Shown: in pieces, positions 12,302 to 17,854 of the stretch | Layout: every line of letters begins with the position of its first letter | How positions within the stretch are numbered: position 1 is the stretch's first letter | Assembly: GCA_013314815.1 (NCBI GenBank) | Contig: JABUEY010000022.1 | Coordinates: 1-39,365 of the forward strand | From: Syntrophobacteraceae bacterium | Lineage (GTDB): Bacteria > Desulfobacterota > Syntrophobacteria > Syntrophobacterales > Syntrophobacteraceae | DNA: 39,365 nucleotides | Reading direction: 5' to 3' | The notes under the pieces: model-generated | Told to the model about the DNA's origin: nothing | Seen by the model: the letters and a program-made list of their open reading frames with translations, nothing else | Databases searched by the model: none | Position numbers and translations under genes: made by a program

Positions 12302-13084
12302 TCACCTGCTCCGCCATACAGGTTTTCTCCTCTCGATGAACGCCGTCATTCCCTCGACGGCGTCGTCTTCCATGCAGTTCATGGAGATCACTTCCTTCGC
12401 ATAATCATAGGCTGGTTTTTCGGCCAGATCCACCTGTTCATAAAAGGCGCGCTTCCCCAGAGCAAGGGTGAACGGACTCGCCTGGGACAGATCCAAGGCC
12501 CACTGCCTTGTCTCTTCGACCAGCCTGTCGGCGGGAACCACTCGATTCAGCAGCCCGGAATGTTCCGCTTCTTCAGCCGACACGAATCTTCCCGTCAGCA
12601 GCATATCCATGGCACGCCGCCTGCCGATCACCCGCACCAGGGGTACCATCGGCGTAGTGCAGAACAGGCCGATTTTCACTCCCGGAGTGGCAAAACGTGC
12701 GCCGGTTTCGGCTATGGCAAGATCACAGGCGGCCACGAGCTGGCAACCCGCCGCCGTCGCGATCCCGTGCACCATGGCAATGACGGGCTGCGACAATTCA
12801 TGCAGTTGAAGCATCATCCGGTTGCAGGTGGTGAAGATCTTCCTCACCGCATGAAGATCTCTGCTGCTTGAAGACATCTCCCGGATATCATGCCCCGCAC
12901 TGAATACGGGTCCGTTGCCCCGGATAACCACCACGCGTATTGCGCCGTCGTTTTGAATAACGGCGAGCTTGTCGAGCAACCCCTCAATCATTTCAAGGGA
13001 CAAGGCATTCCTCTTTTCGGGATGGTTGAGAATCAGCCACCCGATGGGACCCTCTTTCTCGAGTAAAACACGATCCATTTTCAT
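12302..13084 (-). CDS. Enoyl-CoA hydratase/isomerase-family protein lacking both catalytic glutamates
   Basis: A 260-residue crotonase-fold protein. The first oxyanion-hole strand is FSAGHDIREM (residues 61-70), the second HGIATAAGC (107-115), and the C-terminal helical trimerisation part is present (AFIERRKPVW). In enoyl-CoA hydratase, two glutamates hold the water; here the first position is Gln115 (AAGCQLVAACD) and the second Gly135 (TPGVKIGL). It therefore resembles the ECHDC3-like branch rather than a true hydratase, and its reaction is unknown. The ATG at 13084 follows AAGGAGA. The upstream neighbour on the same strand is the GlnD homologue, 18 bases away, so the pair is probably co-transcribed. 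Fold assignment is firm; hydratase activity is doubtful. Confidence 0.88.
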   Translation of the reverse strand: MKMDRVLLEKEGPIGWLILNHPEKRNALSLEMIEGLLDKLAVIQNDGAIRVVVIRGNGPVFSAGHDIREMSSSSRDLHAVRKIFTTCNRMMLQLHELSQPVIAMVHGIATAAGCQLVAACDLAIAETGARFATPGVKIGLFCTTPMVPLVRVIGRRRAMDMLLTGRFVSAEEAEHSGLLNRVVPADRLVEETRQWALDLSQASPFTLALGKRAFYEQVDLAEKPAYDYAKEVISMNCMEDDAVEGMTAFIERRKPVWRSR

Positions 13085-13102: not shown

Positions 13103-15706
13103 CTATGCCGGCCAGGTTTCCGGGCCGTCCAGCCAGAAGCACAGCGCCCTTTTCAGTTCCTCCATCTGCTCCCGGTCCATAACCTTTTCGCCACGGGATG
13201 TACGGATGTAGAAGACGTCCGCCACCTGGTCTACTTTAGTTGTAATTTTAGCTACATAAATACGAATCTGCAGTTCGAAAAGAGTCCGGCTTATGGTGTA
13301 GAGCAATCCCACGCGGTCGACGGTGTACACTTCTAGAATAGTGTACTCGGCAGACGATTCATTATCGATGAGAATGCGGCTGGGAGTGGGCCGGACGGGT
13401 GTGGCCATGGTTCCGCATCTGGCCGCATGCTGAGCGATACGGTAGTCAAGAGCCATTTTACCTTCGAGGAGGCGTTCCATGTCATCCCGGACCCTGTCGA
13501 AATCGACTCCTCCGTGATCCTTGCCGGGCAGGCGGCACTGGAAGTTGAGCAGGACGATGCCGTTGTTCATGGTAAACACATGTGCGCCCATGATGTTCAG
13601 ATCATGAAGGGTCAATATCCCGGCGGCACGGGACAGCAGTTCGGACCTGTCCCAGCTCATGAGGGTGATCTCGGCCATTGCGTCGGCCCTCGATACTTCC
13701 CACACAAAGAGGTCCCTCGAGGTCTGCAGATGCCGCCCCATCCTCAGGTGCCGGGCAATGGCCCTGGGCGGCATGGAAAGCAGGTAACGCGGGACCAGTT
13801 GAGAGAAATACGCATCGAGTTCCTGCTCGTTCATGAGATCGGCCACCTCGTGCCGGACCCGGGCTCTCACCTGCTCGATCTTCTCCGCGATGGCCCGCGG
13901 GCTCGGTTCCCCTTTTTCCAGCAGATGCCGCACGCTCTTGTAGAGAAGGAGAACAGGAGTATCTTTCCATTTGCCGTAAGCCTTCGGTCCGGTGGCTGCC
14001 ATATCGGCAAAGGTGAGCAGAACGAGGAGGTCGAGCAGTTCTGGATTTCCGACGATCAGGGCACACTGAGCCAGCATTTCCTCGTCCGCCAGGTCTCGAA
14101 GGGATGCGCTGTCCATCAGGAGCAGGTGCTGGGCAACAAGAAACTGTACCCTGTCCGACTCCTCCGGATGAAGCCCAAGCCGCCGCGCAATGGTCGGTAT
14201 CATCTCTCCGCCGTTCAGGGCATGGCCCTTTCCCGAGCTTTTCCCAATGTCGTGAAGCAGGCACGCCAGGAATACCCATACGGGATCGTCGATAGTTTGA
14301 GCCAGGTGAGTCAATTCCGGTTCCTCGTGGGCATAGTCCCCGCGGATCAATTTCTTCAGCTCCGAAAGCGACCTAAGATGGTGCTCATGAACCGGATAAA
14401 GGTGGAATGCATCGTGTTGAACAAGTCCGTGCACGGGGCTGAGTTCAGGGATGAGCGAAGTAAGGAGCCCCCGGTTGTAGAACCTTCTGATAACGGGGAT
14501 CTCCGCAACATCCGCTCGAAGCAGCCCCAGCAGTTCCTCCTTCACCACCGCATCCCCGGACGCTGTATCGAGTACATTGCGATGATGGTCAATCCATTGT
14601 CTGGTCACGTTGGCGAAGCCGAACCCGTGTTCGGCGGCGATCCTGAAGAGACGGACCACGTGGCCGGCGGTAGGCGAGTATCGATCGGTGTGCAGGAATA
14701 TCTTTCCCGTATGGGCATACAATCCATCTCCCAACACCACCGCTTCGGGGTCTCTCTCATCGATGTCCCTTTCTCCGGTGCGGATTTCATGCAGCCTCTC
14801 CCAGAATTCCTGCGAAATGCAGCTTACTCCATGAAAAAGCTGGAACACCACCTGCATGAACGATTCGACGGCAAGAAACCCGGCCCTCTGGGCATAGCCC
14901 AGTTTATCCGCCAGGATCTCCTGTTCATCGAACCGGATGATGCCACTGGAGTCCCCCGTGATATTCCTGGCCAGGCTGAGAAGCCGCGCATAGGTTTTCT
15001 CGGCATGAAGAAGTAAGTCCACTTCCTGCCGCACAAGGTATCCACCGAATATGGCGTCTTCAAGGTTTCTGATATTCGCTGCGACCCTGCAGCCGGCTCG
15101 AATGGCGGTGATATCCGAGAGCCCTCCGGGGTTGCGGTCGAGGTCCGGTTCAAGCCATGCGTCGGGAAGGTCGAGTCTCTCCTCCCGGGTTTTCACTGAA
15201 CGATAGATGCAATCGAGATATTCCGTCTGACGGTCTTCGATGAGTGCATCCACAGCCTTATCCAGCTGGTCCACCAGGTGGCGGTTCCCCGAGATGTACC
15301 GCGCCTCGAGCAATGCCGGGAAAAATCCGAAGTCGTCCCGAACCCTTTCCACCACCTCGTCGATGGTCCCCTGCCATGCGTCGACAACCCATCCTGCTTC
15401 CTCGATCGGCAGGGTGATCTCGTCGAGCCAATTTTCCTGCCAGGGATGATTATCCGCTTTGAGGAAGAGTATCGGCACTGTCTCGTTGGGGCTGTTCAGC
15501 CCCCGCCCGAAAGCTCCCAGTGCAACCACGGCCCCACTGGCCCTGAACTGCTCCGTGTCCTGGCCCAGCCGGTTTACCAGGCGGTTGTAAAGAGAGATGA
15601 CGGCGATCTCGAGCAGGCTGTTGTGCCGACTGAGCACCTCGTCGCTGCCGTCGGCCATGACCTGTTCGCGCTGTTTTCTCAGGGACTCGGAAATGTTCTG
15701 CATCAT
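13103..15706 (-). CDS. glnD: GlnD-like protein with decayed uridylyltransferase site, HD and two ACT domains
   Basis: An 867-residue protein with the architecture of the PII uridylyltransferase/uridylyl-removing enzyme. The nucleotidyltransferase region (residues 50-205) keeps ALGAFGRGL at 62-70 and the GGLSDI motif at 194-199, but where GlnD has S-D-I-D-L it reads NETVPIL (74-80), so both metal-binding aspartates are missing. The HD hydrolase domain looks whole: EHH around 441-443, LLHDIGKSSGKGH 483-495 and QH 526-527. Two ACT domains occupy about 690-770 and 795-860 (TVDRVGLLYTISRTLFE). By homology it could still remove UMP from PII or sense glutamine, but uridylylation is improbable. The start is ATG 15706, with GAGGG close upstream. 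It is followed by the crotonase-like gene. Confidence 0.85.
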   Translation of the reverse strand: MMQNISESLRKQREQVMADGSDEVLSRHNSLLEIAVISLYNRLVNRLGQDTEQFRASGAVVALGAFGRGLNSPNETVPILFLKADNHPWQENWLDEITLPIEEAGWVVDAWQGTIDEVVERVRDDFGFFPALLEARYISGNRHLVDQLDKAVDALIEDRQTEYLDCIYRSVKTREERLDLPDAWLEPDLDRNPGGLSDITAIRAGCRVAANIRNLEDAIFGGYLVRQEVDLLLHAEKTYARLLSLARNITGDSSGIIRFDEQEILADKLGYAQRAGFLAVESFMQVVFQLFHGVSCISQEFWERLHEIRTGERDIDERDPEAVVLGDGLYAHTGKIFLHTDRYSPTAGHVVRLFRIAAEHGFGFANVTRQWIDHHRNVLDTASGDAVVKEELLGLLRADVAEIPVIRRFYNRGLLTSLIPELSPVHGLVQHDAFHLYPVHEHHLRSLSELKKLIRGDYAHEEPELTHLAQTIDDPVWVFLACLLHDIGKSSGKGHALNGGEMIPTIARRLGLHPEESDRVQFLVAQHLLLMDSASLRDLADEEMLAQCALIVGNPELLDLLVLLTFADMAATGPKAYGKWKDTPVLLLYKSVRHLLEKGEPSPRAIAEKIEQVRARVRHEVADLMNEQELDAYFSQLVPRYLLSMPPRAIARHLRMGRHLQTSRDLFVWEVSRADAMAEITLMSWDRSELLSRAAGILTLHDLNIMGAHVFTMNNGIVLLNFQCRLPGKDHGGVDFDRVRDDMERLLEGKMALDYRIAQHAARCGTMATPVRPTPSRILIDNESSAEYTILEVYTVDRVGLLYTISRTLFELQIRIYVAKITTKVDQVADVFYIRTSRGEKVMDREQMEELKRALCFWLDGPETWPA

Positions 15707-16005: not shown

Positions 16006-16641
16006 GTGATCGCCATCCTGGACTACAGGGCCGGGAACCTCACGAGTGTCGAGAGAGCATTGCGTTTTCTGGGATTTTCCTGCCGGATCACCGATTCCCA
16101 CGATGAAATCAGGGCGGCGGATCGAATCATATTCCCGGGAGTCGGCGCGGCGGGCAAGTCCATGGCCGACCTGGTCGATCTCGGCCTCGACACGCTTATC
16201 AAGGAAAGATTCAGCGCCGGCATTCCCATCATGGGCATTTGTGTGGGCCTGCAGGTTCTCTTCGACTACAGCGAAGAAAACGACACAAAGTGCCTGGGCA
16301 TACTTCCGGGCAGAGTTCGACTCTTCCCCAGGAATATGCCATCGGAAAGCGGCGTCCCGTACAAGATCCCGCACATGGGCTGGAACGAAGTGAGGTTCGA
16401 TCGCAGGCATCCCGTTTTCGAACACATTCCTGCCGGGAGCGAGTTCTATTTCGTTCACAGCTATTACCCGGACCCCGAGGATCCGGCTCACCCCTGCGGC
16501 GCGACGGAATACGGAATCACCTTCTGTTCGGCCGTCGCCTGGCGAAACCTGGCAGCGGTGCAGTTTCACCCCGAGAAGAGCGGGCCTGCGGGGCTGAAGA
16601 TACTAGAGAACTTCTGCCGCTGGGATGGCCGCTCTTCCTGA
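16006..16641 (+). CDS. hisH: Imidazole glycerol phosphate synthase, glutaminase subunit HisH
   Basis: A 211-residue class I glutamine amidotransferase that supplies ammonia to HisF in histidine biosynthesis. The N-terminus [11 protein letters not shown] and PGVGAAG match the family. The nucleophile is Cys in [12 protein letters not shown], and the His and Glu are in VQFHPEKSG. The substrate-gating PHMGWNEV is present. GTG at 16006 lies after AAAGGAG; an ATG five bases earlier is out of frame. hisF follows after 17 bases. The other his genes are absent from the window, so the pathway is dispersed. Confidence 0.95.
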
Positions 16642-16658: not shown

Positions 16659-17438
16659 ATGTTGAGCAAGCGCATCATCCCCTGCCTGGATGTGATGGAC
16701 GGACGCACCACCAAGGGGATCAAGTTCAAGGGCAATATCGATATCGGCGATCCAGTCGAAATGGGACGATTTTACTATGAAGAGGGCGCCGACGAGATCG
16801 TCTTCTACGATATCACCGCATCCAGCGACCGCCGCCCGATCATGCTCGATGTCGTGCGCCGCGTGGCCGAAACCATATTCATTCCGTTTTCGGTGGGAGG
16901 AGGAATCCGCAACCTGGAAGACATGCGTGACGTACTGCTGGCCGGGGCGGAGAAAGTGAGTGTGAATTCGGCGGCGGTACTCGATCCCGATATCATTCGC
17001 CATGGATCCGAGGCTTTTGGGAGCCAGTGCATCGTTCTGGGGATGGATGTGAAGCAGGTCGGTCCATCGGACAGCATTCCGTCGGGTTACGAGGTGGTCA
17101 TCAACGGCGGCCGCACACATATGGGAATCGACGCCATCTGGTGGGCACAGGAAGCGGAACGGCTGGGAGCAGGAGAAATATGCCTGAATTCCATTGATGC
17201 CGACGGCACCCGGGAAGGATATGCTCTGCACCTGACCAGTCTAGTCTCGACACAGGTAGGCATCCCGGTCATTGCATCAGGTGGAGCCGGCAGGCCGGAG
17301 CATCTGCTCGATGTTCTCCGGCAGGGGAACGCCGACGCGGCCCTGATCGCTTCCATGGTCCATTACGGGACGTACACCATTCGCGAAATCAAACAATACC
17401 TTCACGATCACGGAGTGAAGGTCCGAAACGTCTGGTGA
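16659..17438 (+). CDS. hisF: Imidazole glycerol phosphate synthase, cyclase subunit HisF
   Basis: A 259-residue (beta/alpha)8 protein that uses ammonia from HisH to make imidazole glycerol phosphate and AICAR. The catalytic aspartates are in PCLDVMDG near the N-terminus and VLGMDVKQ in mid-protein. The phosphate-binding loops FSVGGGI and IASGGAG, and NSIDADGT, are all present. The ATG at 16659 has GTGGAG eight bases ahead; the longer open frame overlapping hisH is not real. The insert [23 protein letters not shown] is of usual type. It forms an operon with hisH. Confidence 0.95.
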
Positions 17439-17548: not shown

Positions 17549-17854
17549 CTATTTCTTGAGCTTCTCGATCAGTTCTTCGACTTCCTCGGCGCCCTTTCGA
17601 TAAAACTCCTCTTCCCCGGGTTCAAGTTCCTTGAGAAGCCGCAGGAATTCGCCAGCGTGGACGATCTCCTCTTCAGCAATTTCCGTCAGCACTTCCCGGG
17701 CCAGTTCATTGTCGGTGGACTCCGCAAGCTGCATGTACAGCTGCACCGCCTCGTATTCGGCGGCAACCATGAAACGTATACAGCGGACCAGTTCGCTGTG
17801 AGTCACCTTGCGGTCCAAAGCCAGGCCCGTCAAACCCGTACCGAATTCAGGCAT
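17549..17854 (-). CDS. Short ferritin-like protein of the encapsulated-ferritin (EncFtn) type
   Basis: A 101-residue protein made of one helical pair rather than the four helices of normal ferritin. The diiron ligands expected from the EncFtn family are Glu33 (AAEYEA) and the pair Glu63/His66 (EEEIVHAGEF), with Tyr40 nearby. From memory, its core matches the ferritin half of the Pyrococcus encapsulin fusion (AxxAExDAxxLYxQMA...REExAHxGEF). EncFtn proteins form rings that oxidise ferrous iron and normally work inside encapsulin shells. No encapsulin gene is adjacent, and the C-terminus (EELIEKLKK) shows no obvious cargo-loading tail. A rubrerythrin-like label is the alternative, but there is no rubredoxin domain and only one ExxH motif. 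AAGGAGGG precedes the ATG at 17854. Confidence 0.78.
   Translation of the reverse strand: MPEFGTGLTGLALDRKVTHSELVRCIRFMVAAEYEAVQLYMQLAESTDNELAREVLTEIAEEEIVHAGEFLRLLKELEPGEEEFYRKGAEEVEELIEKLKK

Follow-up and report, generated by a model that had tools for sequence, protein, structure and literature searches.

GlnD′, a GlnD homologue encoded in the window (the whole 39-kb contig, 39,365 nt, of a 4.06-Mb draft genome that is 97.7% complete and comprises 245 contigs), is not a broken gene but a specialised, old second paralogue, present throughout the class Syntrophobacteria. Its nucleotidyltransferase (NT) site is predicted to be dead, such that it would not uridylylate PII, and the parts that remove UMP and sense amino acids appear mostly to remain. 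The open reading frame is complete, starting at an ATG and specifying 867 residues at exactly 13103–15706 of the (−) strand. Homology to GlnD spans the whole length (PF08335, HD and ACT superfamily), as judged from profile matches and the tree; the TIGR01693 match, covering residues 38–855, reached 442 bits, which is below the equivalog cut-off of 519.4. The features of the gene and its surroundings are collected in Table 1. A sequence search of the PDB with GlnD′ gave matches solely to the HD domain of poly(A) polymerase, and the AlphaFold model, built from a 3-sequence alignment, was poor (pLDDT 50).

Table 1. Features of GlnD′ and of the neighbouring genes (window coordinates)
Feature	Position	Strand	Remarks
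GlnD paralogue (GlnD′), 867 aa	13103..15706	(−)	PF08335 4e-20, HD and ACT matches; TIGR01693 442 bits
GAFGRG, remnant of NT motif G-G-x-G-R-G	15500..15517	(−)	Second Gly gone
NETVPIL	15467..15487	(−)	Stands where catalytic S-D-x-D-L is expected
GlnD_UR_UTase region, PF08335	14804..15193	(−)	Canonical R of GGLRDI gone
HD domain	14054..14305	(−)	Pfam match 468–551; H485-D486 and flanking metal positions kept
ACT1 (approximate limits)	13457..13684	(−)	Eroded: DRSE for DRPG
ACT2	13154..13342	(−)	11/11 canonical-invariant sites kept across clade
Enoyl-CoA hydratase family gene	12302..13084	(−)	PRK08139; 18 nt downstream of GlnD′
hisH-like glutamine amidotransferase gene	16006..16641	(+)	Divergent from GlnD′
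hisF	16659..17438	(+)	Divergent from GlnD′, with hisH

In nucleotidyltransferases, loss of the metal-binding aspartates abolishes transfer. The relevant stretch of GlnD′ reads GAFGRGLNSP-NETVPIL (residues 64–80; nt 15517–15467), and when GAFGRGLNSPNETVPIL is aligned to GGYGRGELHPLSDVDLL of E. coli GlnD both catalytic aspartates are seen to be gone. The motif G-G-x-G-R-G...S-D-x-D is thus absent from GlnD′, and none of its readable orthologues has Asp at E. coli position 105 or 107 in the alignment (0/49, versus 59/59 canonical GlnDs). Position 137, which is usually acidic and, by analogy with the pol-beta-type motif, probably provides the third carboxylate of the site, is acidic in 15/49 orthologues against 56/59 canonical proteins, and reads as Val in the window. 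The initial annotation had noted the replacement of S-D-I-D-L by NETVPIL, which was borne out across the orthologues, and had concluded that the protein should be unable to transfer UMP; since the metal-binding aspartates of the fold are lost, transferase activity is indeed expected to be lost as well. Its statement that a following GGLSDI motif remains did not hold, however: canonical proteins have GGLRDIH, whose R227 is gone in the orthologues.

The remaining domains differ in how well they were kept. Among the sites invariant in canonical GlnDs, GlnD′ retains 4/10 in NT, 8/17 in PF08335, 26/34 in HD, 3/7 in ACT1 and 11/11 in ACT2; the ACT1 region is present but eroded, with no Pfam match of its own. 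Positions 471, 514, 515, 524 and 556 of the HD domain (E. coli numbering) are conserved in 50/50 readable orthologues, and the metal-binding D597 was found in 45 readable rows. The H...HD...D signature is complete in the window protein and in most orthologues; its last Asp is replaced by Val in all three sequences of family f6 (L041, L042 and L043). The claim that the HD and ACT domains look intact thus stands for the HD metal positions and for ACT2, but not for ACT1, where D-R-S-E replaces D-R-P-G. Some HD positions have diverged in a manner fixed in the clade (Y463F and L613P), and position 469, where canonical GlnD has a conserved Asp, is His in 37/48 orthologues. Pairwise dN/dS values were ∼0.04–0.16 over the full protein and did not exceed 0.23 in individual domains, NT usually being among the fastest. 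Purifying selection acts on all the domains; GlnD′ is maintained as a whole, and constraint persists even on the inert NT domain.

To define the distribution of the gene, 56 genomes of the class Syntrophobacteria and 395 genomes sampled from the phylum were surveyed. GlnD′ was present in 52/56 of the former (47 full-length copies, ≥1140 bits, plus five fragments); no copy was detected in G011, G039, G044 and G054 (three of these are <90% complete). In the phylum sample no match outside the class exceeded 709 bits, and those inspected, including the highest-scoring, have an intact SDxD. The named relatives, Desulfoferrobacter suflitae and a Syntrophobacteraceae MAG, assign the clade to the class Syntrophobacteria. 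In the tree, all GlnD′ sequences form one fully supported clade, separate from the canonical GlnDs that their genomes also encode, with branches that track the species families; the loss of the aspartates is common to 49 orthologues over five families. This single clade following the species families, together with the class-wide presence, places the origin of GlnD′ no later than the root of the class, and on this phylogenetic evidence the gene is taken to have been inherited from the common ancestor of the Syntrophobacteria. Its branching from the canonical lineages is blurred by long branches.

The initial annotation had supposed that half of a bifunctional switch was lost, altering nitrogen control, and had proposed searching the genome for a second intact glnD and for PII with the uridylylated Tyr. 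Both are there. Two further GlnD-like pieces, at the ends of contigs C21 and C57, overlap and jointly form one canonical GlnD that carries GGFGRGELSFASDLDLLFL; C21 has nadE, glnB and then canonical glnD, and C57 has glnD followed by glnA, as in complete relatives. That GlnD′ is the sole GlnD of the genome was therefore ruled out, the intact copy simply being divided between the ends of two contigs. GlnB and a second PII, GlnK, both have YRGAEY with the Tyr that is uridylylated; the genome also contains two NifI-type PII genes (contig C12) and GlnE (C42). With canonical GlnD, Tyr-bearing GlnB and GlnK, and GlnE all present, PII switching in this cell is of the normal kind, contrary to the supposition of a lost half, and GlnD′ comes on top of it as an extra paralogue. 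In two relatives (G016, L059; G009, L064) the canonical nadE-glnB-glnD-glnA genes lie ∼9–12 kb from GlnD′ on one contig, and in a third (G046, C1:1959200–1962859) canonical glnD is flanked by two PII genes, one on each side.

The enoyl-CoA hydratase gene next to GlnD′ is probably co-transcribed with it. An equivalent gene lies 19–154 nt downstream of GlnD′ on the same strand in most f1 genomes, in 5/5 of f3 and in 3/3 of f6; in f2 its place is taken by a DnaJ-domain gene. Divergent hisHF genes were found upstream of GlnD′ in many f1 genomes and in one f5 genome. In at least six genomes of f5, GlnD′ comes directly after genes for glutamate synthase (Glu_synthase, GXGXG and Fe-S/NAD(P) proteins), and in two it precedes glutamine synthetase. 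This arrangement links GlnD′ to glutamine/glutamate metabolism, although gene order alone is no proof of function. The window also contains, at 17552–17854 (−), a ferritin-like gene from the EncB family of encapsulin cargo proteins, scoring 82.7 bits where the cut-off is 90, and such a gene occurs near GlnD′ in several relatives.

The three possibilities offered initially for GlnD′, namely UMP removal only, glutamine sensing or another partner, proved to be the right set. We tentatively favour the first, with a confidence a little short of even: GlnD′ would be a neofunctionalised second GlnD performing glutamine-responsive de-uridylylation of PII without uridylylation. With its NT domain dead, it would add no UMP to PII; glutamine bound to the ACT domain(s) would cause the HD domain to strip UMP from PII-UMP, and the protein would form an arm devoted to signalling 'nitrogen is sufficient', biasing the switch set by canonical GlnD. 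The inert NT domain might be retained for folding or for docking PII. In Rhodospirillum rubrum GlnD the two sites are separate, NT uridylylating and HD de-uridylylating PII (PMC3480911), which makes UMP removal alone the simplest function for GlnD′. The missing aspartates (0/49 versus 59/59), the HD (50/50) and ACT2 (11/11) counts and the low dN/dS are consistent with this idea, as are the presence of the substrate (GlnB and GlnK with YRGAEY), of canonical GlnD and of GlnE in the same genome, the f5 neighbours, glutamate synthase and glutamine synthetase, and the altered nitrogen regulation seen with S. meliloti GlnD that has lost its N-terminal domain and is unable to modify PII (PMC3596328). 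Against it stand the replacement of D597 by Val in the three f6 sequences, the His at position 469 in 37/48 orthologues, and one genome, G002, which retains GlnD′ without canonical GlnD or detectable PII.

This last genome makes a PII-independent role a serious rival, possible if somewhat less probable than the reading above: GlnD′ would sense glutamine or another amino acid via its ACT domains and have a different target, which could be some other phosphoester or nucleotide handled by the HD domain or a binding partner among the products of nearby genes (glutamate synthase, glutamine synthetase, HisH or enoyl-CoA hydratase). In G002, a MAG 93% complete, neither canonical GlnD nor PII (by PF00543) was found, and the single glutamine synthetase present has the domain length of the other type. 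Within one contig (C25:1–8747, L223), phosphomannomutase, epimerase and hisFH come after nadE without glnB-glnD-glnA, the very genes that sit between nadE and phosphomannomutase in G009 and G016; this order suggests that the operon has truly been deleted and does not merely fall in an assembly gap. The same absence was seen in G042 and G049, whose assemblies are poorer. The glutamine-metabolism neighbours in f5, the HD changes fixed in the clade and the mostly His position 469 also fit a PII-independent role, for which Sinorhizobium meliloti GlnD provides a precedent, having PII-independent effects of unexplained mechanism (PMC3596328). However, G002 is a single MAG and the absent 7% might hold a PII gene, nearly all other genomes have PII and canonical GlnD alongside GlnD′, and any partner is putative. 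In its broadest form the proposal, which seems less likely than not, is of a class-wide glutamine sensor that lost uridylyltransfer, functions without PII and, in one lineage or more, persisted after PII and canonical GlnD had gone; such a protein may, for example, have glutamate synthase or glutamine synthetase under its direct control, or have a new HD substrate.

An improbable alternative is that GlnD′ is a non-enzymatic pseudoenzyme that serves as decoy, scaffold or inhibitor by binding PII or canonical GlnD, with glutamine tuning the binding. The NT site missing its aspartates in all sequences and the loss of the last HD metal Asp in all three f6 proteins would agree with this, but the other HD metal positions are conserved (50/50) more strongly than a scaffold needs. 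A decaying pseudogene, sequencing frameshift or assembly artefact has next to no probability: beyond the missing motif nothing speaks for it, recent decay is ruled out by the clade-wide loss and dN/dS, and the local frameshift named initially as a possible refutation, like an assembly error, is excluded by orthologues at 35–67% identity that are colinear, gapless here, have intact frames and share the loss in five families under purifying selection in every domain.

GlnD is portrayed as a single enzyme that combines two opposing activities; a natural copy that appears transferase-dead separates these genetically, making it possible to study what UMP removal by itself, or a GlnD signal independent of PII, does. 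In the open-access literature found, no such natural, conserved paralogue had previously been described. It would be a stable second player in nitrogen control in a class of sulfate-reducing and syntrophic bacteria, and automated, homology-based annotation could label its genes, misleadingly, as PII uridylyltransferase.

Compared with GlnD as defined by TIGR01693 (E. coli b0167), a bifunctional enzyme that adds UMP to Tyr51 of PII and takes it off again depending on glutamine, GlnD′ has the same length and domain order (NT, PF08335, HD, ACT, ACT), and HD and ACT2 residues are conserved in both. It differs in that the NT catalytic aspartates have gone, GGLRDIH and ACT1 are eroded, the score falls below the family cut-off, and it cohabits with a canonical GlnD in the same genome. 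Another close parallel is GlnD-sm2 of S. meliloti, an engineered N-terminal truncation that leaves PII unmodified and changes nitrogen regulation (PMC3596328); it has no working UTase domain, as is predicted for GlnD′. GlnD-sm2 differs in being a laboratory deletion in the sole GlnD of its host, while GlnD′ arose naturally as a paralogue whose NT domain shows point losses and is otherwise kept.
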